From the NCBI GenBank assembly GCA_025356575.1, contig JANXSP010000099.1, forward strand, positions 1-64,000: a DNA stretch of 64,000 nt, given 5' to 3'. The translations under genes and the position numbers were made by a program. Within the stretch, counting starts at the first letter, position 1. Each line of letters begins with the position of its first letter. The notes beneath the pieces were generated by a model that saw nothing but the letters and a program-made list of their open reading frames with translations, searched no databases and was not told the DNA's origin. Positions 41,741-64,000 of this stretch are shown here, piece after piece. Origin of the DNA: Novosphingobium sp. GTDB taxonomy: Bacteria; Pseudomonadota; Alphaproteobacteria; Sphingomonadales; Sphingomonadaceae.

Positions 41741-43105
41741 ATGCCGCAGACGCTGTTCGCCAAGATCTGGGAATCGCACCGCGTCGCGGATACCGCCGCG
41801 GGATCGAGCCTGATCGCGGTCGATCGCGTATTCCTGCATGAGCGGACCGGTGCCGCCGCACTGAACGGCATGGTTGCCGCAGGTCGCAGCGTGCGCGATC
41901 CCGCGCGAGTGTTCGCGGTTACCGACCACATCGTCGATACCCGACCCGGCAGGGGCGACGCCACCCTGATGCCCGGCGGGCAGGCCTTCATCACCGAGAC
42001 CCGCGCAGCATGCGCGGCGGCGGGGATCACGCTGTTCGATGTCAACGACCGCGATCAGGGCATCGTCCATGTGATCAGCCCCGAGCTTGGCATCGTCCTG
42101 CCCGGCGCCACGCTCGTCGCGCCCGACAGCCACACCTGCACCCAGGGCGCGTTCGGCGCGCTGGCGTGGGGGATCGGCTCAAGCGAAGCCGAACACGCGA
42201 TGGTCACCGGAACGTTGCGGATGGTTCGGCCCCGGACGATGCGCGTGACCTACACCGGCGCACTGAGCCCAGGGGTCACGGCCAAGGACATGGCGCTGAC
42301 GCTGATCGCGGCGCACGGCGCGGGCGGCGGCGCGGGGCATGTGATCGAGTTCGCGGGCGAAGCGGTGGAGGCGCTCGACATCGAGGCGCGGATGACGCTG
42401 TGCAATATGGCGACCGAATTTGCGGCCGTAACCGCGATCATCGCGCCCGATGCAAAGACGTATGCCGCACTGGCCGGGACGCGCTATGCCCCCGCGGACT
42501 TCGATGCCCCGTATTGGCAGGCTTTGGCGAGCGATGAGGGAGCGGTATTCGACGCCGAGATCGTCATGGATGCCGCGGCAATCGCCCCGATGGTCAGCTG
42601 GGGGACCAGCCCCGAGCAGAGCGTTGCAGTGGGGGCAGTCATCCCGCAAGGACCCCAGCGCGCGCACGACTATATCGGGCTGGCCGCGGGTGAGCGTCTG
42701 GCCGGGACGCCAATCGACGCGGCATTCATCGGCAGCTGCACCAACGCCCGCTTGTCCGACTTGCGCCGTGCCGCCGCGATATTGAAGGGTCGCCGCATCG
42801 CGCCGGGCATCCGCTCCGCGCTCGTCGTCCCCGGCAGTTCCGCGGTGCGCCGGGCCGCCGAGGCCGAAGGGCTCGACCGGGTGTTTACCGACGCCGGGTT
42901 CGAATGGCGGGAAAGCGGCTGCTCGCTGTGCTTTTACGCGGGCGGCGAGGGCTTTGCCCCCGGCAGCCGCACGATCAGCAGCACCAACCGCAACTTCGAA
43001 GGCCGCCAGGGCCCGGGCATCCGCACGCACATCGCCAGCCCCGAAACCGTCGCCGCCAGCGCGATCGCCGGGGTGATCGCCGATCCGCGAGATTATACGC
43101 CATGA
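41741..43105 (+). CDS. aconitase-family hydratase, large subunit (LeuC-like)
   Basis: IVHVISPELGIVLPGATLVAPDSHTCTQGAFGALAWGIGSSEAEHAM, FIGSCTNARLSDLRRAA, ESGCSLCFY, TNRNFEGRQG. Confidence 0.93.
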   Translation: MPQTLFAKIWESHRVADTAAGSSLIAVDRVFLHERTGAAALNGMVAAGRSVRDPARVFAVTDHIVDTRPGRGDATLMPGGQAFITETRAACAAAGITLFDVNDRDQGIVHVISPELGIVLPGATLVAPDSHTCTQGAFGALAWGIGSSEAEHAMVTGTLRMVRPRTMRVTYTGALSPGVTAKDMALTLIAAHGAGGGAGHVIEFAGEAVEALDIEARMTLCNMATEFAAVTAIIAPDAKTYAALAGTRYAPADFDAPYWQALASDEGAVFDAEIVMDAAAIAPMVSWGTSPEQSVAVGAVIPQGPQRAHDYIGLAAGERLAGTPIDAAFIGSCTNARLSDLRRAAAILKGRRIAPGIRSALVVPGSSAVRRAAEAEGLDRVFTDAGFEWRESGCSLCFYAGGEGFAPGSRTISSTNRNFEGRQGPGIRTHIASPETVAASAIAGVIADPRDYTP

Positions 43106-43701
43106 CCCCGTTTACCACCCTCACCAGTATCGTAGTGCCGCTGCTGCGCGACAATATCGACACCGACACGATCATCCCCAGCCGCGAGATGCGCAGCACC
43201 GGTCGCACCGGGCTCGCGGACGGCCTGTTCGCCCCTTGGCGTTATGTCGAGGCCCGCGTGCCCGATCCGGCGTTCACGCTCAACCAGCCCGCGTTTGCGC
43301 GCGCCGCGATCCTTGCCAGCGGGGCCAACTTCGGCTGCGGATCGAGCCGCGAACATGCGGTCTGGGCGCTGAGCGAATGGGGCATCCGCGCGGTGATCGC
43401 GACCAGTTTCGCGCCGATTTTCGCGGGCAACTGCGTGCGTAACGGGGTGCTGGCAGTGGTGCTGGAGCGCGATGCGATCGCGGCGCTGGCGGGGCACGAA
43501 ACACGGATCGACCTGGCGGCACAGACCGTCAGCGCCGGCGCCGCGTCGTGGGCGTTCGCCATCGATCCCGAGAGCAAGAGCATGCTGCTCGAGGGCTTGG
43601 ACGCGATCGACCTGACGCTGAAGTCGCGCGCCGCAATCGACGCGTGGACCGCGCAGGACCGCACCCTGCGCCCATGGGTCTATCTGGAGCGCGCCGCATG
43701 A
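43102..43701 (+). CDS. aconitase-family hydratase, small subunit (LeuD-like)
   Basis: VVPLLRDNIDTDTIIPSREM, ASGANFGCGSSREHAVWALSEWGIRAVIATSFAPIFAGNCVRNGVL. Confidence 0.93.
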   Translation: MTPFTTLTSIVVPLLRDNIDTDTIIPSREMRSTGRTGLADGLFAPWRYVEARVPDPAFTLNQPAFARAAILASGANFGCGSSREHAVWALSEWGIRAVIATSFAPIFAGNCVRNGVLAVVLERDAIAALAGHETRIDLAAQTVSAGAASWAFAIDPESKSMLLEGLDAIDLTLKSRAAIDAWTAQDRTLRPWVYLERAA

Positions 43702-44615
43702 CCGCCATTCTCGTGTCCGAGGTCGGCCCACGCGACGGGCTCCAGTCGATCGACCGGGTGATGCCGCTGACCGCCAAGCAGGCGTGGATCGCGGCCGAGG
43801 CTGCTTCCGGCGTGCGCGAGATCGAGGTTGGGAGCTTCGTGCCGCCCGCCCTCCTCCCGCAGATGGCCGATACCGCCGCGCTGGTCGAATTCGCGCTGAC
43901 GATCCCGGGACTCAACGTCGTCGCGCTGGTGCCCAACGCCAAGGGTGCCGCGCTGGCGGCGGCGGCGGGGGTCCACGCGATGAGCGTGCCGTTCTCGATG
44001 AGCGAGACGCATTCGCTGCGCAACGTTCGCAAGGACCACCCCGTCATGCTCGCCGAGATCGCCGAGATCGCGCGGATCGCCAAGGCGGCGGGAAGCCACT
44101 TCGCGGTCGGGCTATCGACCGCGTTCGGGTGTACGATCGAGGGTGCGGTGCCCGAGGCGCAGGTCGTCCGGCTCGCGGTCGCCGCGGCGGAGGCCGGGGC
44201 GCAGGAGTTCAGCCTGTCGGACACCACGGGATACGCCGATCCAGCGCAAGTCCGCCGCCTGATCCGCGCCGTCCGTGCCGAGGTCGGCGATTTGCTGACC
44301 ACGCTCCACCTCCACAACACCCGCGGGCTGGGGCTGGCCAACGCGCTGGCGGGGCTGGACGAGGGGATCACCACGCTCGATGCTTCGCTCGGCGGGCTTG
44401 GCGGTTGCCCGTTCGCGCCGGGGGCCTCGGGCAACCTGGTGACCGAGGATCTGGTGCTGATGCTCAACGCGATGGGCTACGACACCGGGATCGACCTCGC
44501 CGCGCTGCTCGAAGTGCGCAAGATCGTGGCCGAAGCGCTGCCGGACGAACCGCTGTACGGCTTCACCCCCGACGCCGGGCCGATGCTGGATTACGCAGAA
44601 CGGGCCGCGCGATGA
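43698..44615 (+). CDS. hydroxymethylglutaryl-CoA lyase-like aldolase
   Basis: VSEVGPRDGLQSI, IEVGSFVPP, LHLHNTRGLGLANALAGLDEGITTLDASLGGLGGCPFAPGASGN. Confidence 0.93.
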   Translation: MTAILVSEVGPRDGLQSIDRVMPLTAKQAWIAAEAASGVREIEVGSFVPPALLPQMADTAALVEFALTIPGLNVVALVPNAKGAALAAAAGVHAMSVPFSMSETHSLRNVRKDHPVMLAEIAEIARIAKAAGSHFAVGLSTAFGCTIEGAVPEAQVVRLAVAAAEAGAQEFSLSDTTGYADPAQVRRLIRAVRAEVGDLLTTLHLHNTRGLGLANALAGLDEGITTLDASLGGLGGCPFAPGASGNLVTEDLVLMLNAMGYDTGIDLAALLEVRKIVAEALPDEPLYGFTPDAGPMLDYAERAAR

Positions 44616-45793
44616 TCGGGCCGACCCCGCTCGCCGGCCTTCGCGTGATCGAGTTCACGCACATGGTGATGGGGCCCACGGTGGGCCACATCCTTGCCGG
44701 ACTCGGCGCAGAAGTCACCCGGGTCGAGCCGATCGGCGGCGACGCGACACGGCGGCTGCTAGGCTCGGGCGCGGGCTATTTTCCGATGTACAACCGCGGC
44801 AAGGCCTCGATCTGCCTCGATCTCAAAAGCGCGGATGGGCTGACTGTGGCGCAGGACCTCTGCGCCAGCGCCGACATCCTGGTCGAGAACTTTCGCCCCG
44901 GCGCGCTGGGCCGGCTCGGGCTGGGCTACGATGCGCTCGCCGCCGCAAACCCGCGGCTGATCTATTGCAGCGAAAAGGGCTTTCTTCCCGGCCCGTACGA
45001 GAACCGCACCGCACTCGACGAGGTCGCTCAGATGATGGGCGGGCTCGCCTACATGACGGGGCCGCCGGGCCAGCCGCTGCGCGCGGGCGCCAGCGTGATC
45101 GACGTGACGGGAGGCATGTTCGGGGTAATCGGGGTGCTCGCCGCGCTCGAGGAACGCCACCGCACCGGGCGCGGGCAAAAGGTCGTCGCCAGCCTGTTCG
45201 AGACGACTGCCTACCTCGTCGGCCAACACATGGCGCAGTTCGCGGTGACCGGAAAACCCGCCGCGCCGATGCCCGCGCGCGTCTCCGCCTGGGCGATCTA
45301 CGACGTGTTCCAGACCCGCGACGAGCCGGTGTTCATCGGCGTGGTCACCGACGCGCTGTGGGAGAAGTTCTGCGCGCTGTTCAGCTTGGACGAACTGTGG
45401 GCCGACCGGTCGATCCGCGCCAACAACGCGCGGGTCATGGCGCGCGAGCGCATCCTCCCCCCGATCCGCGCGCTGATCGCGCAGATGACCCGCGCCGAGG
45501 TAATCGCCAAGCTGGACGGGACCGGGATGCCGTTTGCTGCGATCGGGCGGCCCGAGGATCTGTTCGCCGATCCGCATCTGGCCACCGGCGGGCTCGAACC
45601 GGTGACGCTCGACGATGGCCGGGCGACGCAGCTTCCGACGATTCCGCTCGAGATGGATGGCAAGCGCCCGGGCGGCGCCAGCACCCTGCCACGCGCGGGC
45701 GCCGATGCGCGCCGGGTGCTGGCCGGGCTGGGCTACGACAACGACAGGATCGCCGCGCTGATCGCCAGCGGCGCAGTGGAGGAAAGCACATGA
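44612..45793 (+). CDS. CaiB/BaiF (family III) CoA-transferase
   Basis: LAGLRVIEFTHMVMGPTVGHILAGLGAEVTRVEPIGGDATR, LDLKSADGLTVAQDLCASADILVENFRPGALGRLGLG. Confidence 0.92.
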   Translation: MIGPTPLAGLRVIEFTHMVMGPTVGHILAGLGAEVTRVEPIGGDATRRLLGSGAGYFPMYNRGKASICLDLKSADGLTVAQDLCASADILVENFRPGALGRLGLGYDALAAANPRLIYCSEKGFLPGPYENRTALDEVAQMMGGLAYMTGPPGQPLRAGASVIDVTGGMFGVIGVLAALEERHRTGRGQKVVASLFETTAYLVGQHMAQFAVTGKPAAPMPARVSAWAIYDVFQTRDEPVFIGVVTDALWEKFCALFSLDELWADRSIRANNARVMARERILPPIRALIAQMTRAEVIAKLDGTGMPFAAIGRPEDLFADPHLATGGLEPVTLDDGRATQLPTIPLEMDGKRPGGASTLPRAGADARRVLAGLGYDNDRIAALIASGAVEEST

Positions 45794-51163: not shown

Positions 51164-52225
51164 ATGGAAAAACGGTCGCCGCGGCGGACAGGTACCGGCG
51201 AAAACGTGCATTCCGCGGTAACCTCGTACGATGTCGCGCAGCTGGCCGGGGTTTCGCAATCGGCGGTTTCCCGGTGTTTCCGTCCTGGCTCGAGCATTGC
51301 CCCCAAAACCCGGCTGCGGGTCCTGGAAGCCGCGCAACAGCTTGGCTACGCGCCCAACGCGATGGCTTCGGGCCTGATCACCCGGCGCACCAATCTTGTT
51401 GCCGTGCTGATCTCCAACCTGACCAACCTTTATTATCCCGAAGTCCTGGCCGAAATTACCCGGCGCCTGTCCGATCACGGGATCCGCGTCCTGCTGTTCG
51501 CGCTGCCGGCCGAAAGCGAAGTCGACAGCGTGCTCGATCAGGTTTGGCGCTACCGGGTCGACGGTGCGATTGCGGCGCTGCGCCTGTCGCCCGACCAATT
51601 GCGGGATTTCGCGCGGCGGCGGGTGCCGGTGGTGCTCTATAACCGCTTTGGCGAAGGCGAGGCCGTGCCCAGCGTGTGCTGCGATTCAGTGGGCGGGGAG
51701 CGGCAACTGGTCGATCGCCTCATCGCCGCCGGACACAAGGCATTCGGGATCATCGCTGGACCCGACGATTCCTATGTCAGCCAGGAGCGCGTGCGCGGCG
51801 CCCGCGAGCGGCTCGAAGAACGTGGTCGGAGCGCGCTCGTCACCACCGGTTCGTTCGATTACAGCAGCGGCAACGCCGGGCTCCATGCGCTTATGGCGCA
51901 GTCGCAGGGGAAGCTCGACGCGCTGATCTGCGCCAACGACTTGATGGCGATCGGGGCGATCGACTGCGCGCGCAACGACTTCGCTCTTGTTGTTCCGGAC
52001 GATCTCTCGATCGTGGGGTTCGACGGGGTCGCCCCGGCGATGTGGTCGAGCTATCAGCTCTCGACCATCCGCCAGCCCGTGCGGCGGATGACCCAGGCGG
52101 CAGTCGACATGCTGCTCGAACGGATCGGCGATCCCGATCTGCCGCCGGAAGTCAGGACCTTTGCCGGTGCGCTTATCGAGGGCAGTTCGGCCCGGCTTGC
52201 GGCGCGGGCCGAACCTTTACCCTAG
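51164..52225 (+). CDS. LacI-family transcriptional regulator
   Basis: SYDVAQLAGVSQSAVSRCFRPGSSIAPKTRLRVLEAAQQLGYAPNAMASGL HTH plus periplasmic-binding-like effector domain. Upstream in-frame start at 51140 also possible. Confidence 0.92.
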   Translation: MEKRSPRRTGTGENVHSAVTSYDVAQLAGVSQSAVSRCFRPGSSIAPKTRLRVLEAAQQLGYAPNAMASGLITRRTNLVAVLISNLTNLYYPEVLAEITRRLSDHGIRVLLFALPAESEVDSVLDQVWRYRVDGAIAALRLSPDQLRDFARRRVPVVLYNRFGEGEAVPSVCCDSVGGERQLVDRLIAAGHKAFGIIAGPDDSYVSQERVRGARERLEERGRSALVTTGSFDYSSGNAGLHALMAQSQGKLDALICANDLMAIGAIDCARNDFALVVPDDLSIVGFDGVAPAMWSSYQLSTIRQPVRRMTQAAVDMLLERIGDPDLPPEVRTFAGALIEGSSARLAARAEPLP

Positions 52226-54888
52226 AACTTGACGCTGCCGCGGACCCCGAACAACCGCGGCGGGGCATAGCTCGCCTGGAGGTTGTTGCCGCCGCCATAG
52301 ACGAAGCGCGTCGCAGTCGCCTTGTTGGTGACGTTGGTGACGAAGCCTTGGATCGAGAATCTATCGTTATAGTCCCACGTCAGGCGCAGATCGAGCTTGG
52401 CGAAAGCGGACTGGCGATCGAGAATCGAATTGATCGGCTGCCCGTAAAACGCGCCCGAAAAGCTGACCTGGGCATAAGGGGTCAGATGCCCGGCGCTGCC
52501 CAGGTCGATCGCGTATTCGATCGCGACGGCACCCGAATAATCGGGCGAATGGGCAATCTTGTTGCCCGACAGGTCGCATCCATACGCGGCACCGGGCTGG
52601 CCGACGCCGCCGGTACCCGGGATCAGCCCGCAGTTGTACCCCACCGCGAAGATGCGGCGCTGGCCCGCAGGCGCGATCGTCACGCCGTTGACCAAGGTCG
52701 GGGTGAGCGCGGTGGCATCGGGGATCAGGATCGAGGTGCCAAACGGCGCGGCAACCTGATCGTACTTGGTGTAGCGGGCATTGAGATAGGCGAAGCTGGC
52801 GTTGATCGTCAGCGCGCTGACCGGGCGCCAGATCGCCTCCAGCTCGGCCCCGTATGAACGCGCCTTGCCGCTGTTCTCGATGATCGAGAGCGTCGTGTTG
52901 CCGACCGGAATCTGGCGCTGTTCCTGGAGATTGTTGTAGCGGTTGTAGAACGCCGCCAGGTTGATCTGCACGGTGTTGTCGGCAAACCGGTTCTTCGATC
53001 CGATCTCGAACGCGGTCACCGTCTGCGGGGTGAAAGTACCGCGGCCCAGCGCCAGCGCGGCTTGACTGCCATTGAACCCGCCCGAGCTGAACCCGGTGGA
53101 AGCCGAAGCATAGAGCAGGTTGGTCGGGGTTGCCTGATAATCCGCGCCGAGCCGCCAGGTGACGCGCTCGAACGTCGCAGTCGGGAAGGTCGCGCCGTTG
53201 AACCGGGTCGGGATGTTGTCCAGGCAGCGGAAGCCGGCCACGGGCAGCGGGATCGACGTGTAGGTGCAGTTGGTCGCCGCGCCTTGGACCCCGAACGAAT
53301 AATCGGGCACCGGCCCGGTCGCGAAGGTTATCGCGGTCCCATCGGGTACACCGCCGGCAAGCGGCAAGATCGCATCGGCGTTGGCGAACTGATAGTCCTT
53401 GCGATCGCGTGTCCAGCGAATGCCGCCGGTCAGCTTGAATTGCTCGGTAAGCGCGTACGTCGCCTGCGCATACGCCGCTATCGAAACGGTTTTCCCGCGG
53501 TTCTGCGAATAGAACCCGCCCGCCCGGGGGCGCGTGATATTGGGGGTCACGTTGCGCACGATCTGGTCGAACTGCTGGTTGATGAACACATCGCGAAGCT
53601 GATCGTGGAAGTAATAGCCGCCGATCACGTACTGCAGTGGCCCGGGCTGCGACGAAAGCAGTTGCAGTTCCTGCGTGAACGTCTTGGCGGCGGAGAACTG
53701 GTAATCCGCGCCGATCTGGTTGCCCGAAAAGTCGGTATCCTGGGTACGGGTGGTGGCGAAATCGTTGTACCCGGTGATCGATTTGAGCGTCACGGGCCCT
53801 AAATCGTAGGCCAGATTGGCGGCAAACCCATAGTTCTTCAGCGCCAGCGTGCCGCGATAGTCGTTGTCGATATGGTACGGATCGCCCGCTGCATAAATCG
53901 GCACGCCGGCGTCGATCGTCAGGGGCGAATCGACGATTCCGTCGCGGTTTCCCGCCCGGGTGTTGAGGATCACCGGGGTCGCGTTGAACAGCGCGGTGTT
54001 GGTCGGGACATAGACATAACTGCCGACCAGCTTGTAGCCGAAGGCCGACCCGCCGATGCCGCCGCGCGCCGAATAATCGAACTTGAGCGTCGCGGTGAAG
54101 TCGCTGCTTGGCTTGAAGGTGATCGCGGCCCGGGCATAGGTATCGTCGTTATCGAACAGGTTGCCGCCCGCCGGATTGATGTTCTTGACGTAGCCGTTGG
54201 ACTTTTCGTAGCCGCCCGCAAACCGCACGGCGACGGTCTCGCTCAGCGGAACGTTGACATAGCCGGTCACGCGGATCTGGTTGTTCGAACCGACGGTGAC
54301 GTCGCCCCCGCCCAGCATCCGGTCCATCTTTGGCGCCGCGGTGACGACCGAGATGTTGCCGCCGAAGGTATTGCGCCCGTACAACGTCCCTTGCGGGCCG
54401 CGCTGGATTTCCACCCGCTCTAGGTCGACGAAACCAAGCGTCCCTTGCGAAGCGCGCGACTGGTAAATGCCATCGACGAAGAAGCCGATCGTGGTGTCGG
54501 CGTTGATCCCGACGTTTTCCGTGCGAACCCCGCGGATCGCCGGACGGGCATCGGTGCCCGAGCGGCCGAAGGTGAAGCCGGGAACCAGGCCCTCGAGCCG
54601 AGAAATATCGGTCAGGCCCTTCTTGGCGATTTCGGCCGAGTTGAATGCCGAAACCGAAATCGGGACGGTCTGGAGGTTTTCTTCGCGGCGCTGGGCAGTG
54701 ACGACGATGTCCGCGATCCCGGACGCTGGCTCAGCCTCGGGGTCGGTGCTTGCGGTTGCGGTTGTGGTTGCCGCGGCGCTTGCCGCCGGCACGGTCTGCG
54801 CAAAGGTCGGGGTGGAGCACATGGCCAGTGCCAGTGCGCCGAACGAAACTTGCGCCGCGCGCTGCTTGGCGAAACCGTATACCCTCAT
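52222..54888 (-). CDS. TonB-dependent outer-membrane receptor
   Basis: Signal-like N-terminus, IADIVVTAQRREENLQTVPISVSAFNSAEI, YGRNTFGGNISVVTAAPKM, C-terminal RLFGVRGSVKF. Start placed at MRVYGFAKQ. Confidence 0.95.
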   Translation of the reverse strand: MRVYGFAKQRAAQVSFGALALAMCSTPTFAQTVPAASAAATTTATASTDPEAEPASGIADIVVTAQRREENLQTVPISVSAFNSAEIAKKGLTDISRLEGLVPGFTFGRSGTDARPAIRGVRTENVGINADTTIGFFVDGIYQSRASQGTLGFVDLERVEIQRGPQGTLYGRNTFGGNISVVTAAPKMDRMLGGGDVTVGSNNQIRVTGYVNVPLSETVAVRFAGGYEKSNGYVKNINPAGGNLFDNDDTYARAAITFKPSSDFTATLKFDYSARGGIGGSAFGYKLVGSYVYVPTNTALFNATPVILNTRAGNRDGIVDSPLTIDAGVPIYAAGDPYHIDNDYRGTLALKNYGFAANLAYDLGPVTLKSITGYNDFATTRTQDTDFSGNQIGADYQFSAAKTFTQELQLLSSQPGPLQYVIGGYYFHDQLRDVFINQQFDQIVRNVTPNITRPRAGGFYSQNRGKTVSIAAYAQATYALTEQFKLTGGIRWTRDRKDYQFANADAILPLAGGVPDGTAITFATGPVPDYSFGVQGAATNCTYTSIPLPVAGFRCLDNIPTRFNGATFPTATFERVTWRLGADYQATPTNLLYASASTGFSSGGFNGSQAALALGRGTFTPQTVTAFEIGSKNRFADNTVQINLAAFYNRYNNLQEQRQIPVGNTTLSIIENSGKARSYGAELEAIWRPVSALTINASFAYLNARYTKYDQVAAPFGTSILIPDATALTPTLVNGVTIAPAGQRRIFAVGYNCGLIPGTGGVGQPGAAYGCDLSGNKIAHSPDYSGAVAIEYAIDLGSAGHLTPYAQVSFSGAFYGQPINSILDRQSAFAKLDLRLTWDYNDRFSIQGFVTNVTNKATATRFVYGGGNNLQASYAPPRLFGVRGSVKF

Positions 54889-54942: not shown

Positions 54943-54962
54943 TTGCAATCGCAGTCAAAAAT
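54943..54962. promoter_or_regulatory. candidate shared element 2, TTTTGCAATCGCAGTCAAAA
   Basis: Upstream of the TonB receptor; 17/20 identical to 60955-60974; imperfect dyad TTTTG-N10-CAAAA centred on CG. Confidence 0.55.
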
Positions 54963-55070
54963 AATCCAGCGATGTGACATTAATACGATTCGCGGTGGTG
55001 TCTGAAGCTTCGCCGTGCCCCGTTTTGCGCCAATATACCACCCCGCTTGCTTTTGCATCCGGCAGCATTC

Positions 55071-56342
55071 ATGTTCGTTTCGCAACACGCCGTGTCGGAG
55101 AAACCCATCGCTAGTTCAGCCAAGCCTTGGATCAACGCCGCCGATCTTTCGGCCACGCGTCGCTATGCTGCGCTAGCGTTCCTGCTTGTCGCTTATTTTT
55201 GCTACGCGTGGTCGTGGAATACCGTCGACATCTTGCGCCCGTACATCAAGGACAGCCTGCATCTCACGCTGACCCAGTCGGGATCGCTCTATTCGCTCCA
55301 GGCGATCGGGGCGATTGCGGGTGCGGTCGTCATGGGCCAGATCGCGGACAAGATCGGGCGGCGCAACGCGCTCAGCATATCGATGCTTGGCTATGGTTCG
55401 GGAATCCTCGCCGCGCTGCTGGTCCACGATTATACGCAGTTGATTTTCCAGCGGATTTACCTCGGATTCTTCATGGGCTCGATGTTCCCGATTGCGGTGG
55501 GGATCTACTCCGGGCTGTTCGCGCGCGATGTCCGGGGACTTATCGCGGGGATCGTACTGGGCACGTACAACGTCGCGGTGGCGGTGCTCGGATTCATGTC
55601 CGCCGCGGTGTTCCGCGCGGGGTACGACTGGACGGTGCTGCTCTACATTGGCGTCGTTCCGGTTGCGATGGCACTGTTCGCACCGCTGGCCATTCCCGAC
55701 GACCGTATCCTGATTCCGATGGACGGGATCGCCGATGGCCAGACGGTGGCCAAGGCCAGGCTCCCCATTGCCGAGCTGTTCGCACCCGGGGTCGCCCGCC
55801 AGACGATCCTGCTGGCGACGATGACGGGCCTCAACTTCTTTGCGTACCAGGCGTTCACTGGCTGGGCGACGACCTACCTCAAGACGGTGCGCCTGATCCC
55901 CGATACCGTGATCGGCGATGTGCTCGGCTGGCAGTTCATCGGCGCCGCAATCGGCGGGCTCGGCTGGGGCTGGATCAGCGACCGGCTCGGCCGCCGCGCC
56001 GCGGCATGGGGCTTTGTCGCCGCTGCCGCGATCATCCCGATCTATCTGTTCGTACCGATGGGCGTCCGCCTGCTCGAGCTCACCGGGTTCGTCTACGGTG
56101 TGATGCTGTCGTGCAGCGCGATCTGGGGACCGTGGTTGTCCGAGCTCTACCCGCCCCACTTGCGCTCGACCGCCGCGTCGATCTTCAACTGGGGCCGGGT
56201 CATCAGCATGACCGCTCCGCTGATTACCGCGCCGCTGGCCGAAGCGGTCGGGCTGGCGCCGGTGATGTGCCTCGCGTCGGTCAGTTTCGTTGCCGCGGCA
56301 GTGATCTGGCTGAGCTTGCCCGAAACGCTCAAGCGGGCATAG
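55071..56342 (+). CDS. MFS transporter
   Basis: Twelve-helix-type profile; GQIADKIGRRNALSISMLGYGSG, GWISDRLGRRAAAWGF. Confidence 0.9.
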   Translation: MFVSQHAVSEKPIASSAKPWINAADLSATRRYAALAFLLVAYFCYAWSWNTVDILRPYIKDSLHLTLTQSGSLYSLQAIGAIAGAVVMGQIADKIGRRNALSISMLGYGSGILAALLVHDYTQLIFQRIYLGFFMGSMFPIAVGIYSGLFARDVRGLIAGIVLGTYNVAVAVLGFMSAAVFRAGYDWTVLLYIGVVPVAMALFAPLAIPDDRILIPMDGIADGQTVAKARLPIAELFAPGVARQTILLATMTGLNFFAYQAFTGWATTYLKTVRLIPDTVIGDVLGWQFIGAAIGGLGWGWISDRLGRRAAAWGFVAAAAIIPIYLFVPMGVRLLELTGFVYGVMLSCSAIWGPWLSELYPPHLRSTAASIFNWGRVISMTAPLITAPLAEAVGLAPVMCLASVSFVAAAVIWLSLPETLKRA

Positions 56343-56344
56343 CG

Positions 56345-57415
56345 ATGCGGTGGGACGATCTGCCCGAGGTCCGCTCGCCGGCCGGACGCACCCTCTCCGA
56401 TTTGCTCGAGGAAGGCCCGCCGCGGCAGGATTTGCCGGGCTACGATCCGGTCTACCGCGATTTCGTCGACTACATCATCCGCTGCACCCACCGGATCTGG
56501 GAGCAGAAGAACGTCGGGCTATGCCGCACGCACTATAGCGATGACTGCGCTATCCACACGCTGGCCGGGCCGGTCAGCGGGGTCGAGGCAGTCGTCCAGA
56601 ACACGATTACGACGCTGGCGGCGACCCCGGACCGGCTGCTGATCGGCGAAGACGTGATCTGGTCGGACGACGGCGCCGCCGGGCTTTACAGCTCGCATCG
56701 GATCGTCAGCCGGTCGACCCATATGGGCGACGATCCATTACTCGGCGGCGCGACGATGATACCCAACGGGGTGATGACGATCGCCGATTGCCTTTGCCGC
56801 GAAAACCGGATCGTCGAGGAATGGCTGGTCCGCGACAACCTGCGCGGCGTGCTCCAGGTAGGCGGCGATCCGTGGGCGGTGGCGCGGGCGCAGGCCGAGA
56901 CCGACCGCACCGGCGATCAGACGCGGCATGCGTGGCGCAACCAGGCGATTGCTGCGGTCCGCGGTGAGGCCGATGTCGCAATTCCCGAAGGCCATCCCGC
57001 GGCTGCGCCCGTCGCCATGCTGATCGCGACATTGCGCGGCGACCGTTACGGCGACGGTGCCGAGGCGCTGTCGCCCGCGTGCGAAGTCCGCTGGCCGAGC
57101 GGCCGCCGCGGGTTCGGACGCGGATACTGGATCGGCTGCCTGACGCAGATCCGCAGCGCTTTGCATGACCCGGTCTTTCGCGCCGAACATGTCGCTGCGC
57201 GCCCGCTGCCCGGCGGCGACATCGCGGTGGCGGTGCGCTGGTCGCTGGCGGGCAGACACCGCGGCGACGGACTTTGGGGCGCTGCCAGTGGGCGTGAAAT
57301 CATGATCATGGCGGTTTCGCACTACCGGCTGCGCGGCGGGTCGATTGTCGAGGACGTGACCGTGTTCGATGAACTCGCGGTCCTGCGCCAGATCGCCGGA
57401 GGCCTGGGCGCATGA
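56345..57415 (+). CDS. SnoaL/NTF2-like protein
   Basis: HRIWEQKNVGLCRTHYSDDCAIHTLAGPVSGVEAVVQNTITTLAATPDRLLIGEDVIW plus a second similar half. Confidence 0.65.
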   Translation: MRWDDLPEVRSPAGRTLSDLLEEGPPRQDLPGYDPVYRDFVDYIIRCTHRIWEQKNVGLCRTHYSDDCAIHTLAGPVSGVEAVVQNTITTLAATPDRLLIGEDVIWSDDGAAGLYSSHRIVSRSTHMGDDPLLGGATMIPNGVMTIADCLCRENRIVEEWLVRDNLRGVLQVGGDPWAVARAQAETDRTGDQTRHAWRNQAIAAVRGEADVAIPEGHPAAAPVAMLIATLRGDRYGDGAEALSPACEVRWPSGRRGFGRGYWIGCLTQIRSALHDPVFRAEHVAARPLPGGDIAVAVRWSLAGRHRGDGLWGAASGREIMIMAVSHYRLRGGSIVEDVTVFDELAVLRQIAGGLGA

Positions 57416-58059
57416 GCGCGGGCGTGGCACTGCGCCAACTGGCACGCGGCGAGCGCCCGGGCGAGGCGCTGCTCCATACCGCGCGGCTCGAAGCGCTGGG
57501 CGCCGAATATTACGGCGAGGAGGCGATCCTCGCCAGCTTCCGCGGTGATCCGCTCGACCTGGGGGCCGGCGCGGTGCTGCTCGAAGCCCCTGGCTTTTGT
57601 TTCGTGATCGACGGGCAAACCGCGCTGTTTGCCGAGTTGACGGGTAACTACATCGCGCGGCTGTGGCGTTTGGGCAGCGGCGCGCCGGGCGCAGCAGAAA
57701 CCGCCGTGGCGGTCGCGTTCGACCCCGATCTGAGCCAGTCACGCGGCGCGGTGATGTTCGCCCCCTGCGATCACCCGGCGCTGGCCGGAGACGCTGCCGA
57801 ACGCGTGGTCGCTGCGGCCACCGCGCTGACCTGCGATCCCGCGCTGCGCACGCGCGTTTTCGTGATCCGCGCGTTCGGCGACAGCAAACAGGGGGCTGCG
57901 CTCTACGCCGTCTACCGGCTGGGGGGCAGTGGACCGCTGAAGTCCGGTTTCGCCATGGCCTTGAGTTGGTGGACGCCCGCCGGCGACGGCACGATCCGCG
58001 ATCGTGCGGGCGAAGCCGCGGTCGCCGTGCGGGTCTGGACCCCGCGCGTCGGAGCGTGA
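57412..58059 (+). CDS. hypothetical protein
   Basis: 215-aa ORF, 4-bp overlap with upstream gene; operonic position. Confidence 0.55.
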   Translation: MSAGVALRQLARGERPGEALLHTARLEALGAEYYGEEAILASFRGDPLDLGAGAVLLEAPGFCFVIDGQTALFAELTGNYIARLWRLGSGAPGAAETAVAVAFDPDLSQSRGAVMFAPCDHPALAGDAAERVVAAATALTCDPALRTRVFVIRAFGDSKQGAALYAVYRLGGSGPLKSGFAMALSWWTPAGDGTIRDRAGEAAVAVRVWTPRVGA

Positions 58060-58081
58060 TTTTTATCGAGGACCTTGCTGA

Positions 58082-59233
58082 ATGACCGACCGTATCCTGA
58101 CCACCCACGTCGGTTCGCTGCCGCGCTCCGCCGCGGTGACCGACCTGATCTTTGCCGCCGAGCGCGGTGATGCAGTCGACCCGGTCGAGTTTGCGGACGT
58201 AGTCGGCGCCGCGGTGAGCGAAGTCGTGGCCCGCCAGCGCGCGGTCGGGATCGATCTCGTCAGCGACGGCGAGATGTCGAAGATCAGCTATGCGACCTAC
58301 ATCAAGGATCGCATCACCGGGTTCGAGGGCGACTCCCCGCGCACGCCCCCGGCCGATCTCGAGGACTTTCCCGAGTTCCTCAATCGCCAGGCCAAGGGCG
58401 GGGGCACGCCATCGTATCGCCGGCCCAAGTGCGTCGGCGCGGTCGCGCCCAAGACGCTTGCCCCGCTTCAGGAAGACCTGCGCCACATGGAGTCCGCGCT
58501 GGCGCCTTATCCCGGCACGCAAGGGTTCATGAACGCCGCCTCGCCCGGGGTGATCGCGCTGTTCCAGCCCAACGAGTTCTATCCGACGCAGGACGCGTAT
58601 CTCGAGGCGCTGGGCGAAGCGATGCGCCCCGAATACGAAGCCATCGTTGGTGCCGGACTGATCCTCCAGCTCGATTCTCCCGACCTCGGGCTCGGGCGCC
58701 ACATGATGTACAAGGGCCGCTCCGACGCCGACTATCTGGCGCTGATCGGGGTCCATGTCGAAGTGCTCAACCACGCTTTGCGCAACGTGCCTGCGGACCG
58801 CGTGCGGATGCACGTCTGTTGGGGCAACTACGAAGGCCCGCACACCCACGATGTCGAGATGGGGGTGATCCTGCCGACGCTGATGCACGCCAAGCCCGCG
58901 GGGCTGCTGTTCGAAACCTCCAATCCCCGCCACCAGCATGACTGGAATTATTTTGCCGAGATGATCGCGCTGATCCCCGAGGACAAAGTCCTGATCCCCG
59001 GGGTGATCGACAGCACCACCAATTTCGTCGAGCACCCGCGCGTGGTCGCCGAACGGATCGAACGGTTCGCCGCAATCGTCGGGCGGGAGCGCGTGATCGG
59101 CGGGACCGACTGCGGGTTCTCGACCTTTGCCGGGTTCGGCGCGGTCGATCCGGACATCGTCTATGCCAAGCTTGGCGCCCTGGTCGAAGGCGCAGCCCTG
59201 GCGAGCCGCAACCTCTACCGGTCGGCGGCGTGA
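58082..59233 (+). CDS. MetE-like (cobalamin-independent methionine synthase C-terminal fold) enzyme
   Basis: ILTTHVGSLPRS, GIDLVSDGEMSK, LILQLDSPDLGLGRH, RMHVCWGNYEGPH (His-x-Cys), VIGGTDCGFSTF. Confidence 0.85.
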   Translation: MTDRILTTHVGSLPRSAAVTDLIFAAERGDAVDPVEFADVVGAAVSEVVARQRAVGIDLVSDGEMSKISYATYIKDRITGFEGDSPRTPPADLEDFPEFLNRQAKGGGTPSYRRPKCVGAVAPKTLAPLQEDLRHMESALAPYPGTQGFMNAASPGVIALFQPNEFYPTQDAYLEALGEAMRPEYEAIVGAGLILQLDSPDLGLGRHMMYKGRSDADYLALIGVHVEVLNHALRNVPADRVRMHVCWGNYEGPHTHDVEMGVILPTLMHAKPAGLLFETSNPRHQHDWNYFAEMIALIPEDKVLIPGVIDSTTNFVEHPRVVAERIERFAAIVGRERVIGGTDCGFSTFAGFGAVDPDIVYAKLGALVEGAALASRNLYRSAA

Positions 59234-59988
59234 ACCTGCGCGAACGGATTCGCGCCCGCGAACTGCTCGCGGCGACGTGGGTCAAGACGCCGCACCCGCA
59301 CGTAGTGGAAGTGCTCGCGCTCTCGCCGCTCGACTTCCTGGTACTCGACGCCGAACACGCGCCGTTCGACCGCGGCGATCTCGACGCCTGCATTCTTGCC
59401 GCGCACGCGGGCGCCAAGCCGGTGCTGGTCCGCCCTGCATCCGCCGCGCACGAGCAGCTCCTCAACGCGCTCGATCTGGGCGCGGACGGCGTTATCGTCC
59501 CGCATGTGCGCTCCGCTGCGGAGGCCGCCGCCATCGTCCACGCTTGCCACTACCGTCCGGGCGGGCGCGGCTTTGCCGGAAGCACGCGCGCGGCGGGCTA
59601 CACCACGCTGGGCATGGCCCGGCACCGCGCCGCGGCGCAAGGGGCGATCGTCATCGCCCAGATCGAGGACGCCGAGGCGTTGGGCGAAATCGATGCGATC
59701 GCCGCCACCCCCGGCCTCGACGCTCTGTTCATCGGGCGCGCCGACCTGACCGTTTCGCTCGGCGCCGAGACGCCCGATGCCCCCGAAGTGATCGCCGCGG
59801 TCGAAGCGATCTGCGCTGCGGGCCAGCGCGCCGGGATCGCGGCGGGGATGTTCCTCGGCCGGGTCGGCGACGTGGCGCTGTGGCGTGAGCGCGGAGCGAG
59901 CCTGTTCATCCTGCAATCGGATCACGACTTCATCCTGCAGGGAGCCGGCGCGCTGGCCGGGGCAATCAAAGGAGCGCGCGGCGGCTAA
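59230..59988 (+). CDS. HpcH/HpaI-type aldolase
   Basis: LLAATWVKTPHPHVVEVLALSPLDFLVLDAEHAPFDRGDLDACI, ALDLGADGVIVPHVRSAAEA, LFIGRADLTVSLG. Confidence 0.9.
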   Translation: MNLRERIRARELLAATWVKTPHPHVVEVLALSPLDFLVLDAEHAPFDRGDLDACILAAHAGAKPVLVRPASAAHEQLLNALDLGADGVIVPHVRSAAEAAAIVHACHYRPGGRGFAGSTRAAGYTTLGMARHRAAAQGAIVIAQIEDAEALGEIDAIAATPGLDALFIGRADLTVSLGAETPDAPEVIAAVEAICAAGQRAGIAAGMFLGRVGDVALWRERGASLFILQSDHDFILQGAGALAGAIKGARGG

Positions 59989-60000
59989 ATCGGCTGCAAT

Positions 60001-60921
60001 TCAGGCGCGCCGAACTGCAAAGGCGATCGCCTCGTCGCCTCGAACCGCGGCAATCGCAACTCCATCGGGGACGGTCATGGTGTCCCCCGCGTCCAGCCGG
60101 ACGGGCACGCCAGCGAGCGTGAAGGTCATGGTCCCGCGATGGATGAACACGACCGCGCCCGTCAGGTCTAAATCGCTGGGACCGGCAAGTGCGATCCGCT
60201 CGAGCGTGAACCCGTGCTCCCACGCAAGCGGTCCGCCCCGCCCGATGATCGCCGCGCTTTGGGCCTGCGCCCGGACTACCAGCCGCTCGGCCTCGCCCAT
60301 CGATGGCACCGCCAGCGCCGCCGCCTCGGCGGGCGAAGTGCGCGGCATGGGCGCGACATCCGCGGGCACCGCCTGGCCCGCCGCCGTGTCGATCAGGGTG
60401 CCGTTCTCGAGCAGGACGAGGCCGTAATCGGCGGCCATGTCGAACACCTCCGGAGCCCACAACACGCGGCCCGGAACATCGCTGCCGAGCACTGCCCACA
60501 GAAACCCGATATCATCGCCGATGTTGGTAAAGCCGCGGAACATGCCCGTGGGCAGAGAAATCGTATCGCCCGGCCCGCACTCGACCCGCGCGGCATCGCC
60601 GTGCTCGCCGAGATTGAAGCTCCACCGCCCGGTGTGGACGACGAAAACCTCGGCCGTATCGTGGCTGTGCTGCGAATTGACGCACCCCGGCGGCTGGCGC
60701 GCTCCGCCGATGTTGAAGCCGTGGGGCTGAGTAATATGAACGTGCTGATCCGGGTTCTCCGAAACGCCCGGGCCGATGATCGTGAAGTTTTCCTTGGCTT
60801 CCGAACCCGGGGTCCGGGTATCGATAAACGCGTTGAAGCACGGTTGAAGATCGCGGTAGCGGACGATCCGTGCCGCTATCGCCTCTGCGCTCCACCGCGC
60901 CGTTGCCGTTACGTCATCCAT
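60001..60921 (-). CDS. two-domain cupin protein
   Basis: QHSHDTAEVFVVHTGRWSFNLGEHGDAARVECGPGDTISLPTGMFRGFTNIGDD and a second cupin-like half. Confidence 0.7.
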   Translation of the reverse strand: MDDVTATARWSAEAIAARIVRYRDLQPCFNAFIDTRTPGSEAKENFTIIGPGVSENPDQHVHITQPHGFNIGGARQPPGCVNSQHSHDTAEVFVVHTGRWSFNLGEHGDAARVECGPGDTISLPTGMFRGFTNIGDDIGFLWAVLGSDVPGRVLWAPEVFDMAADYGLVLLENGTLIDTAAGQAVPADVAPMPRTSPAEAAALAVPSMGEAERLVVRAQAQSAAIIGRGGPLAWEHGFTLERIALAGPSDLDLTGAVVFIHRGTMTFTLAGVPVRLDAGDTMTVPDGVAIAAVRGDEAIAFAVRRA

Positions 60922-60954
60922 CGCCCACCTCGACCTTGATCAGTGGTTGCAGTG

Positions 60955-60974
60955 CTTTGCATTCGCAGTCAATA
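60955..60974. promoter_or_regulatory. candidate shared element 2 copy, CTTTGCATTCGCAGTCAATA
   Basis: Between divergent cupin (-) and SnoaL-like (+) genes; 17/20 identity to 54943-54962. Confidence 0.55.
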
Positions 60975-60982
60975 TAACTCGC

Positions 60983-61938
60983 ATGATCATCGATTTTCCC
61001 GCTGGCACGATCCCGCACAGTATTTTCGCCGGTGCGCCGTTGGCGCCCGACCACCTCTTGCGCGCATTCCACCCGGTCGGCGAAGGCCGCGGCGCAGGGT
61101 TTGTCGGCGACGCGCTGCTTGGTCCGCTCGGCCGCGCCATCCCGCGGTTCGAAGCGCGCGCCGACATTGCGATGAAGGGCCGCTGGCAGGAGGGCAGCTG
61201 GACCGGGACGAGCGGGCATCTGCTCGGGCGCTTCGTCGCCCCGTTGTGGGGAATTCCCGCAACCCAGCGCATCGTGTTCATCCGCTTCGGCTGTTTCCAG
61301 TTGTGGCGCGCAGGCGAGGTGACCGAAACCCTGCTCCTCCTCGATCTGCCGTCGCTTATGATGCAGGCGGGCGTCTGGCCGCTGGCCCCGGCGATGGGTC
61401 CGGACTCGATGGCTCCCGCTCCGCTCGGCCTGGCAGGTGTGTGGCCGGACGACATCGGCGAAAGCGCAGCCAGCCTCGCGCTGGTCGAGGGCATGATCAA
61501 CGGGCTCAAGAAGTTCGACGGCGACGGGCTGGCGAAGATGGGCATGACCGATTTCTGGACCGACGAGTTCTGGTGGTATGGCCCCGCCCCGATCGGCAGC
61601 TTTCGCGGACACCGGGATTACGAACGCGGTCACCAATTGCCGTTCCTCACCGCGTTTCCAGATCGCGTCGGCGGCAACCACCGCGCGCGGTTCGGCGACG
61701 GGATGTTCGTTGCTTCGACCGGGTGGCCGAGCATCGCCGCGACGCACAAGGGCAGCGGTTTCATGGGCTCGCCGCCACCGACCACGCGATCACGATGCGA
61801 GTGATGGACTTCTGGCGGCGCGAGGGTGAACGCTTGGCGGAAAACTGGGTGATGATCGACATCCCCGATTTGCTGAATCAAATGGGCCTCGATGTATTCG
61901 AGCGGATGCGCCTGCTTGCCGAGGCCCGAGGCGGCTGA
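60983..61938 (+). pseudogene. SnoaL-like/ester-cyclase-type protein with apparent 1-nt frameshift near the 3' end
   Basis: Frame 1 ends ...ATHKGSGFMGSPPPTTRSRCE*; the alternate frame continues [56 protein letters not shown]. Confidence 0.7.
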
Positions 61939-61975: not shown

Positions 61976-63295
61976 ATGGCCGAATATCTCAAGCGCGGAG
62001 CCACCGCCGAAGCCAAGGCGGACAGCGACCGCAAGGTGCGCGACACCGTCGAGGGGATCCTTGCCGACATCGCCGCGCGCGGCGACGCTGCGGTGCGCGG
62101 GCTCTCGATCAAATTCGATGGCTGGGACCGCGACGACTATCGCCTGAGCCCCGACGAAATCCAGGGGTGTCTCGACCAGCTGACCGGCCAGGACCTCAAG
62201 GATATAGAGTTCGCGCAAACCCAGGTGCGCGGTTTCGCGCAGATCCAGCGCGCCTCGATGACCGACGTCGAAGTCGAGACGCTTCCCGGTGTCGTCCTGG
62301 GCCACAAGCATCTGCCGGTGAACGCTGCGGGTTGCTATGTCCCCGGCGGTAAATACCCGCTGCTCGCCTCGGCGCACATGAGCGTGATCACGGCCAAGGT
62401 TGCCGGGGTCGCGCGCGTCGTCACCTGCGCCCCGCCGTTCGCAGGCAAGCCCGCGCCGGCGATCGTCGCGGCGCAGGCGATGGCCGGGGCGGACGAGATC
62501 TGGTGCCTCGGCGGGATCCAGGCGGTGGGCGCGATGGCGCTGGGCACCGCGAGCATGGCGCCGGTCGACATGCTTGTCGGGCCGGGCAATGCGTTCGTCG
62601 CCGAGGCCAAGCGCCAGTTGTTCGGCCGGGTCGGGATCGACCTCTTTGCCGGGCCGACCGAGACGCTGGTGATCGCCGACGAGGTCGGCTGCGACGGCGA
62701 ACTGGCGGCGACCGACCTGCTGGGCCAGGCCGAGCACGGCCCCGATTCGCCCGCGGTGCTCCTCACCACCAGCCGCGCGCTGGCCGAGGAAACCATGCGC
62801 GAGATCGAGCGCTTGCTGACGATCCTGCCGACCGCGGACGTCGCCCGCCGCGCGTGGGAAAACTTCGGCGAAGTGATCGTGGCGCAGGACGATGCCGAGA
62901 TGGTTCGCATCGCCGACGAGATCGCCTCAGAACACGTCCAGGTGATGACCCGCGATCCCGAATATTTCCTCCAGCACATGACAAATTACGGCGCGCTGTT
63001 CCTGGGTAGCCGCACCAATGTCAGCTTCGGCGACAAGGTCATCGGGACCAACCATACCCTGCCCACCAAAAAGGCCGCGCGCTATACGGGCGGCTTGTGG
63101 GTCGGAAAATTCCTCAAGACCTGCACCTATCAGCGCGTCACCAGCGACGCTGCTTCGGCGATGATCGGCGAATACTGCAGCCGGCTTTGCGCGCTCGAGG
63201 GATTTGCCGGACACGGCGAGCAGGCCAACATCCGCGTGCGCCGGTTCGGCGGGCGCAACATTCCCTACGCCGGCGCCGCACAGCCGGTGAGCTGA
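61976..63295 (+). CDS. histidinol-dehydrogenase-like (HisD family) protein
   Basis: [107 protein letters not shown]. Confidence 0.92.
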
Positions 63296-63296
63296 C

Positions 63297-64000
63297 ATGG
63301 CGCTGCCGCAAACGCCCTCGTTCCGGCTCGACGGACGCCGCGCGTTGGTCACCGGCGCCGGGCGCGGGATCGGCCTGGCGCTGGCCGCTGCCTTGGCCGC
63401 GGCGGGGGCGCAGACCACGCTGGTCGCCCGCACCGCAAGCGAGATCGAAGCCGCTGCTGCAGAAATGGGGGCGGAATGGGCCGTGCTCGACGTCAGCGAT
63501 CTGGCGGCAGTCGCTGCGTTTTTCGCCAGCCGGCCCGCGTTCGACGTGCTGGTCAACAATGCCGGAACCAACCGTCCCATGCCGATGACCGCGGTGAACG
63601 AGGCAGACTTCGACGCGGTGCTCGATCTCAACCTGAAGTCGGCGTTTTTCGTGACCCAGGCCTGCGTGAAGGAAATGATCGCCGCCGGTACGGCCGGCAG
63701 CGTGATCCACATCGGTTCGCAAATGGGCCACGTCGCCGGTCCCGAGCGCAGCCTCTATTGCGCATCGAAGTGGGCGCTGGAAGGGATGTCCAAAGCCTTC
63801 GCGCTCGATCTCGCGGCGCACGGCATCCGCAGCAACACGATTGCCCCGACGTTTATCGAGACCCCGCTGACGAAGCCTTACTTCGAAGATCCGGCGTTCA
63901 AAGCTGCGGTCTTGTCCAAAATCAAGCTGGGCCGGCTGGGGCGGGTCGAGGACCTGATGGGCGCCGCGGTGTTCCTGGCATCGGACGCTTCGGCACTGGT
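63297..64000 (+). CDS. short-chain dehydrogenase/reductase (truncated by window end)
   Basis: RRALVTGAGRGIGLALAAAL, VNNAGTN, YCASKWALEGMSKAFALDLAAHGIRSNTIAP; no stop before the window end. Confidence 0.92.
   Translation, partial: MALPQTPSFRLDGRRALVTGAGRGIGLALAAALAAAGAQTTLVARTASEIEAAAAEMGAEWAVLDVSDLAAVAAFFASRPAFDVLVNNAGTNRPMPMTAVNEADFDAVLDLNLKSAFFVTQACVKEMIAAGTAGSVIHIGSQMGHVAGPERSLYCASKWALEGMSKAFALDLAAHGIRSNTIAPTFIETPLTKPYFEDPAFKAAVLSKIKLGRLGRVEDLMGAAVFLASDASAL

Follow-up and report, generated by a model that had tools for sequence, protein, structure and literature searches.

Genes and regulator of the locus

The part of the window from 51164 onward (the window being the whole stretch of Novosphingobium sp. 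DNA that was analyzed, 64,000 nucleotides in length) holds a cluster of uptake and enzyme genes beside a LacI-family regulator, with two closely similar words placed between divergently oriented genes (Table 1). Domain searches agree with an earlier sequence-only reading that had placed a LacI-type protein at 51164: both PF00356 (47.6 bits) and PF13377 (93.4 bits) score above their cut-offs, and the protein has a LacI-type helix-turn-helix together with a periplasmic-binding-protein-like effector domain. Alignment with E. coli LacI shows that the hinge leucine equivalent to L56 is present (NAMASGL / NRVAQQL), and the helix-turn-helix alignment indicates that the recognition-helix residues QSAVSR are invariant among orthologues that carry the motif described below. 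The host genome (2.62 Mb, in 178 contigs) encodes only one other LacI-type protein, and its recognition helix differs (VAVKTVSRVL).

Table 1. Positions of the regulator, cluster genes and intergenic elements in the window
Feature	Coordinates	Strand	Evidence or remark
LacI-family regulator	51164..52225	+	Pfam LacI and Peripla_BP_3; HTH alignment; helix VSQSAVSRCF
TonB-dependent receptor	52222..54888	-	Pfam TonB_dep_Rec_b-barrel and Plug
Operator 1 (predicted), TTTTGCAATCGCAGTCAAAA	54941..54960	none	TonB receptor/MFS intergenic region (divergent genes); block invariant across five orthologous promoters
Operator 1 core, TTGCAATCGCAGTCAA	54943-54958		
MFS transporter, aromatic acid/sialate-like	55071..56342	+	below family cut-offs
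SnoaL-like protein	56345..57415	+	Pfam SnoaL
Protein without family match	57412..58059	+	conserved in cluster relatives
MetE-like protein (Meth_synt_2)	58082..59233	+	single copy in genome
HpcH/HpaI-type aldolase	59230..59988	+	
Bicupin, HxHxxxE metal-site pattern	60001..60921	-	Pfam Cupin_2, alignment, structure model
Operator 2 (predicted), CTTTGCATTCGCAGTCAATA	60955..60974	none	cupin/SnoaL-like intergenic region (divergent genes); block invariant across seven orthologous promoters
Operator 2 core, TTGCATTCGCAGTCAA	60957-60972		
Protein called SnoaL-like in the sequence-only reading	60983..61804	+	no Pfam match; conserved beside operator 2 in relatives
Histidinol-dehydrogenase-like (HisD-like) enzyme	61976..63295	+	Pfam Histidinol_dh
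SDR oxidoreductase	63297..64000	+	ORF translation; runs on to contig position 64046

The MetE-like protein scores far under every methionine-synthase cut-off, the only matches of the bicupin model are generic bicupins (TM-scores about 0.5), and the SnoaL-like structure model (pLDDT 56) is too poor for use. A gene for a GH5-family (cellulase-fold) protein follows the SDR gene directly on the opposite strand, beyond the window (L108:4057-5979, contig 64057-65979), and no operator was seen at it. A first cluster, at 41741-45793, is likewise without operators of this kind; as judged from ORF translations only, it holds LeuC/LeuD-like hydratase, HMG-CoA-lyase-like and CoA-transferase genes, and possibly encodes a branched dicarboxylate route.

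Position and form of the intergenic elements

Direct comparison of the two elements confirms the proposal that they are identical at 17 of 20 positions. The second element lies where it had been reported, while the first sits two bases to the left of the earlier placement at 54943-54962. Measured to the start codons of the flanking genes, operator 1 stands 52 bp before the likely ATG of the receptor (at 54888 on the minus strand) and 110 bp before that of the MFS gene (at 55071). For operator 2, which is likewise upstream of both neighbors, the distances are 33 bp to the cupin ATG at 60921 on the minus strand and 8 bp to the SnoaL-like ATG at 60983; the last of these four spacings falls outside the distance range of LacI operators (PMC4052901). 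Neither site shows a clear sigma-70 promoter, and Rfam matched no RNA element.

How much the likeness of the two words means depends on the way in which it is counted. The fixed 20-bp word had no match in 100 dinucleotide shuffles, whereas 2,544 freely chosen pairs of 20-mers in the window reach 17/20; 22 such pairs (about 10 groups) are noncoding, by a rough definition of noncoding. Since pairs of this quality are common in the window, the element pair alone is weak evidence and does not convince.

The elements share an even-length, CG-centred form, TTGCAWTC/GNAGTCAA (the slash marking the center), in which the central CG is invariant across 31 asymmetric sites and nearly so across 21 palindromic ones; even, CG-centred palindromic operators are the rule in the LacI family (PMC4052901). 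The outer dyad TTTTG-N10-CAAAA to which the sequence-only reading drew attention is present, but it is not the conserved part: relatives keep a core of 14-16 bp, TTGCAWTCGNAGTCAA, and not the outer A/T runs. What counts instead is the symmetry TTGCA(W)TC/G(N)AGTCAA, whose right half is not palindromic: in the window a left TGCA half-site is mismatched with a right GTCA, and both operators are poor palindromes.

This asymmetry is seen in the clade to which the window belongs, where the right arm reads GTCA, not TGCA, at nearly all sites, and also at most receptor promoters. The palindromic form TGCATTCGNATGCA occurs in sister genomes and in Ensifer; within the sister clade, the cupin and HisD sites are palindromic and the receptor-promoter site deviates in its right arm in several genomes. 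A tree of the LacI proteins places most of the genomes with asymmetric sites in one group (support 90/92), which also includes one palindromic and one mixed genome. Genomes with asymmetric and with palindromic sites have an identical recognition helix, which therefore does not explain the asymmetry. Perfect palindromes stand beside the LacI genes of more distant relatives in Ensifer (TGCATTCGAATGCA) and Sinorhizobium (TGCATACGTATGCA). As the LacI proteins there have QSTVSR or QSAVSR helices, the TGCA half-site is tied to this LacI subfamily. In Sinorhizobium medicae, TGCATACGTATGCA or a version one mismatch off lies at L118:208, 7968 and 11474, upstream of ABC-transporter, cupin and hydrolase genes, and the LacI protein encoded next to these palindromes has the identical QSAVSR helix.

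Conservation of the core beside LacI orthologues

Orthologues of the regulator were collected together with their surrounding DNA, and a first scan, which used only the motif of the window itself, found that motif in most close-orthologue loci. Across the orthologue loci, either TTGCAWTCGNAGTCAA or the palindrome TTGCATTCGNATGCAA recurs upstream of the same genes, preceding TonB receptor, cupin/SnoaL, cupin/HisD and SDR/HisD genes. When the 14-bp core was allowed at most one mismatch, 61 sites were recovered in 20 loci with LacI relatives of at least 40% identity, compared with none for the reversed control and one in the loci of distant LacI homologues; some of the 20 loci are near-duplicates (L006/L007, L013-L015), so the number of independent loci is smaller. 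The LacI relatives at L016 (58%), L018 (51%) and L106 (58%) have no good site in the stretches scanned, and in the first two of these stretches much of the cluster is absent.

Alignments of the cupin/SnoaL promoter from seven genomes, and of the receptor promoter from five loci (two of them close copies), show TTGCATTCGNAGTCA or TTGCAATCGCAGTCA as an invariant block in which only one or two edge bases vary. The DNA around this core is essentially unalignable, leaving the core as the only long invariant block. Conservation at orthologous promoters, which the earlier reading had named as a check, is thus borne out: in relatives the same core stands before the receptor, cupin/SnoaL and HisD-like/SDR genes, and its sites are linked to LacI orthologues. 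Four loci carry tandem operators 23 bp apart, or about two helical turns (L005:9885-9923, L008:2774-2812, L010:7767-7805 and L114:7765-7803), upstream of the TonB receptor gene or, in L114, of the LacI gene.

The element is also rare. Within its own genome, the 20-mer has one additional match at up to three mismatches, and a relaxed 16-mer has exactly two perfect sites, both in the window; weaker matches are close to background, the totals being 13 for the pattern and 4 for its reverse. Candidate further regulon members among the matches with one or two mismatches were rejected, as these lie near the reversed-control level and are mostly not motif-like. Many random genomic copies, the outcome that would have spoken against a regulatory element, were looked for in this genome and not found. 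Strict copies among 251 genomes of the family are confined to the window genome (two), G156 (two, beside its LacI gene) and G024 (one). G024 has no LacI orthologue at E <= 1e-80, and its stray copy is within chance, about 3 being expected by an estimate for ~0.8 Gb, both strands and uniform base composition. The LacI protein itself is found at that threshold in 6 of the 251 genomes. Full or degenerate sites occur in five of these six (the window genome, G021, G040, G156 and G223) but not in G074.

A predicted local LacI regulon

The two elements are very probably docking sites for the LacI-type protein encoded beside them, since a word almost identical to theirs precedes the same genes in many relatives that have this regulator. 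The assignment to a LacI-family operator made in the sequence-only reading is upheld by the even, CG-centred form, by the perfect palindromes in other orthologue genomes and by the way in which the motif follows the LacI orthologues. We therefore consider, with high confidence, that the elements are predicted operators of the protein encoded at 51164-52225, which would repress two divergent promoters until an effector appears. The companion proposal, that this second cluster forms a regulon separate from the first, also gains support at the level of sequence, as the motif lies at orthologous cluster promoters and tracks orthologues of this regulator across genomes.

We infer that the regulator binds and represses, rather than activates, its targets in the following way. 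An effector-free dimer would sit on the TTGCAWTC/GNAGTCAA sequence, its hinge leucines placed at the CG in the center, and would block RNA polymerase at both divergent promoters: the pair serving the TonB receptor on one side and a putative MFS-SnoaL-MetE-like-aldolase operon on the other, and the pair serving the bicupin and a putative SnoaL-like-HisD-SDR operon. Judged from its position 8 bp from the SnoaL-like start, binding at operator 2 should block transcription there. A substrate or pathway intermediate would then release the repressor, turning on uptake and catabolic genes together as a local regulon. Autoregulation is seen in 72% of the LacI regulators surveyed (PMC4052901), whereas no operator was found near the LacI gene in the window; operators do adjoin the LacI gene in other genomes, such as L105, L112 and L114.

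It is improbable, if not negligibly so, that the same protein binds these sites as an activator or dual regulator instead of a simple repressor. Dual regulators are known in the LacI family, PckR being a predicted example (PMC4052901), and neither site has a clear sigma-70 promoter. Against such a role, the closeness of operator 2 to the SnoaL-like and cupin starts suits blocking, and SuxR of the Xanthomonas sux locus, a local LacI-type regulator that adjoins a TonB receptor and an MFS transporter as here, has been shown experimentally to be a repressor that is relieved by its sugar (PMC1790865). We give still less weight to the idea that the element is recognized by another DNA-binding protein, whose gene lies elsewhere, and that the LacI linkage is a by-product of cluster conservation. 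The cluster and the LacI gene do travel together, so linkage alone cannot tell LacI from another binder, and the three relatives without good sites would fit this view; however, the element has the standard LacI form with its central CG, the only other LacI-type protein of the genome has a different recognition helix, and Ensifer and Sinorhizobium, despite differing gene content, keep TGCA palindromes together with a QSTVSR or QSAVSR LacI. The remaining reading, that two AT-rich words between genes resemble each other by chance or belong to the core promoter, can practically be dismissed despite the many equally good 20-mer pairs and the -35-like TTGACT that the asymmetric arm shows on its reverse strand, since the core is kept at orthologous promoters amid unalignable DNA with no control matches, the TTGACT has no consistent -10 at 16-18 bp, and a promoter element would be genome-wide instead of present in two exact copies and absent from nearly all family genomes.

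Repression by the LacI-type protein would make this a predicted local regulon of a conventional kind. It resembles the LacI-family local regulons described by Ravcheev et al. (2014, PMC4052901) in regulator type, in the even, CG-centred operator, in the small clustered set of uptake and catabolic genes and in the comparative-genomics nature of the evidence, and differs from them in its non-palindromic right half-site; the text of that study mentions neither Sphingomonadales nor TonB. No LacI regulon of Sphingomonadales turned up in a literature search, and neither TGCATTCGAATGCA nor the core was found in a search confined to the running text of papers. The sux locus differs in its enzymes (amylosucrase) and in that its substrate is known to be sucrose; it also lacks a divergent cupin/SnoaL promoter. 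Also related are uncharacterized plasmid-borne LacI/cupin/SnoaL/HisD/MetE-like clusters of Octadecabacter, Marinovum, Sinorhizobium and Ensifer (L114-L118), which share overlapping families and a QSAVSR/QSTVSR-type LacI, and which in Ensifer and Sinorhizobium have related palindromic operators; no clear site was found in the Octadecabacter, Alloyangia and Marinovum stretches. In these clusters sugar ABC transporters replace the TonB receptor and MFS transporter, and in several an RraA-type protein replaces the HpcH aldolase. Cluster relatives lie on large plasmids in several genera (L112 and L113 in Novosphingobium, and L114-L118), a location that suggests mobility of the cluster between Alphaproteobacteria.

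The overlap with gene sets that include sugar ABC transporters, on plasmids of Roseobacteraceae and Rhizobiaceae, suggests a carbohydrate-like substrate, whose uptake and catabolism the regulon probably governs; searches of NCBIfam, the PDB and the literature did not assign the substrate. More tentatively, the MetE-like, SnoaL-like, HisD-like, bicupin and aldolase proteins might jointly form an undescribed, Alphaproteobacteria-wide pathway for a sugar-acid-like compound, with the asymmetric half-site of the one clade being functional (for example, in setting strength or direction at divergent promoters) as opposed to drift. What began as a pair of words picked out by eye is now a well-supported predicted regulon, with its regulator named and a motif that can be searched for, and about ten genes without an assigned common function are gathered in one unit that is probably inducible. 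Screens for compounds that induce these promoters would be a direct way to find the substrate of this widespread, uncharacterized cluster.
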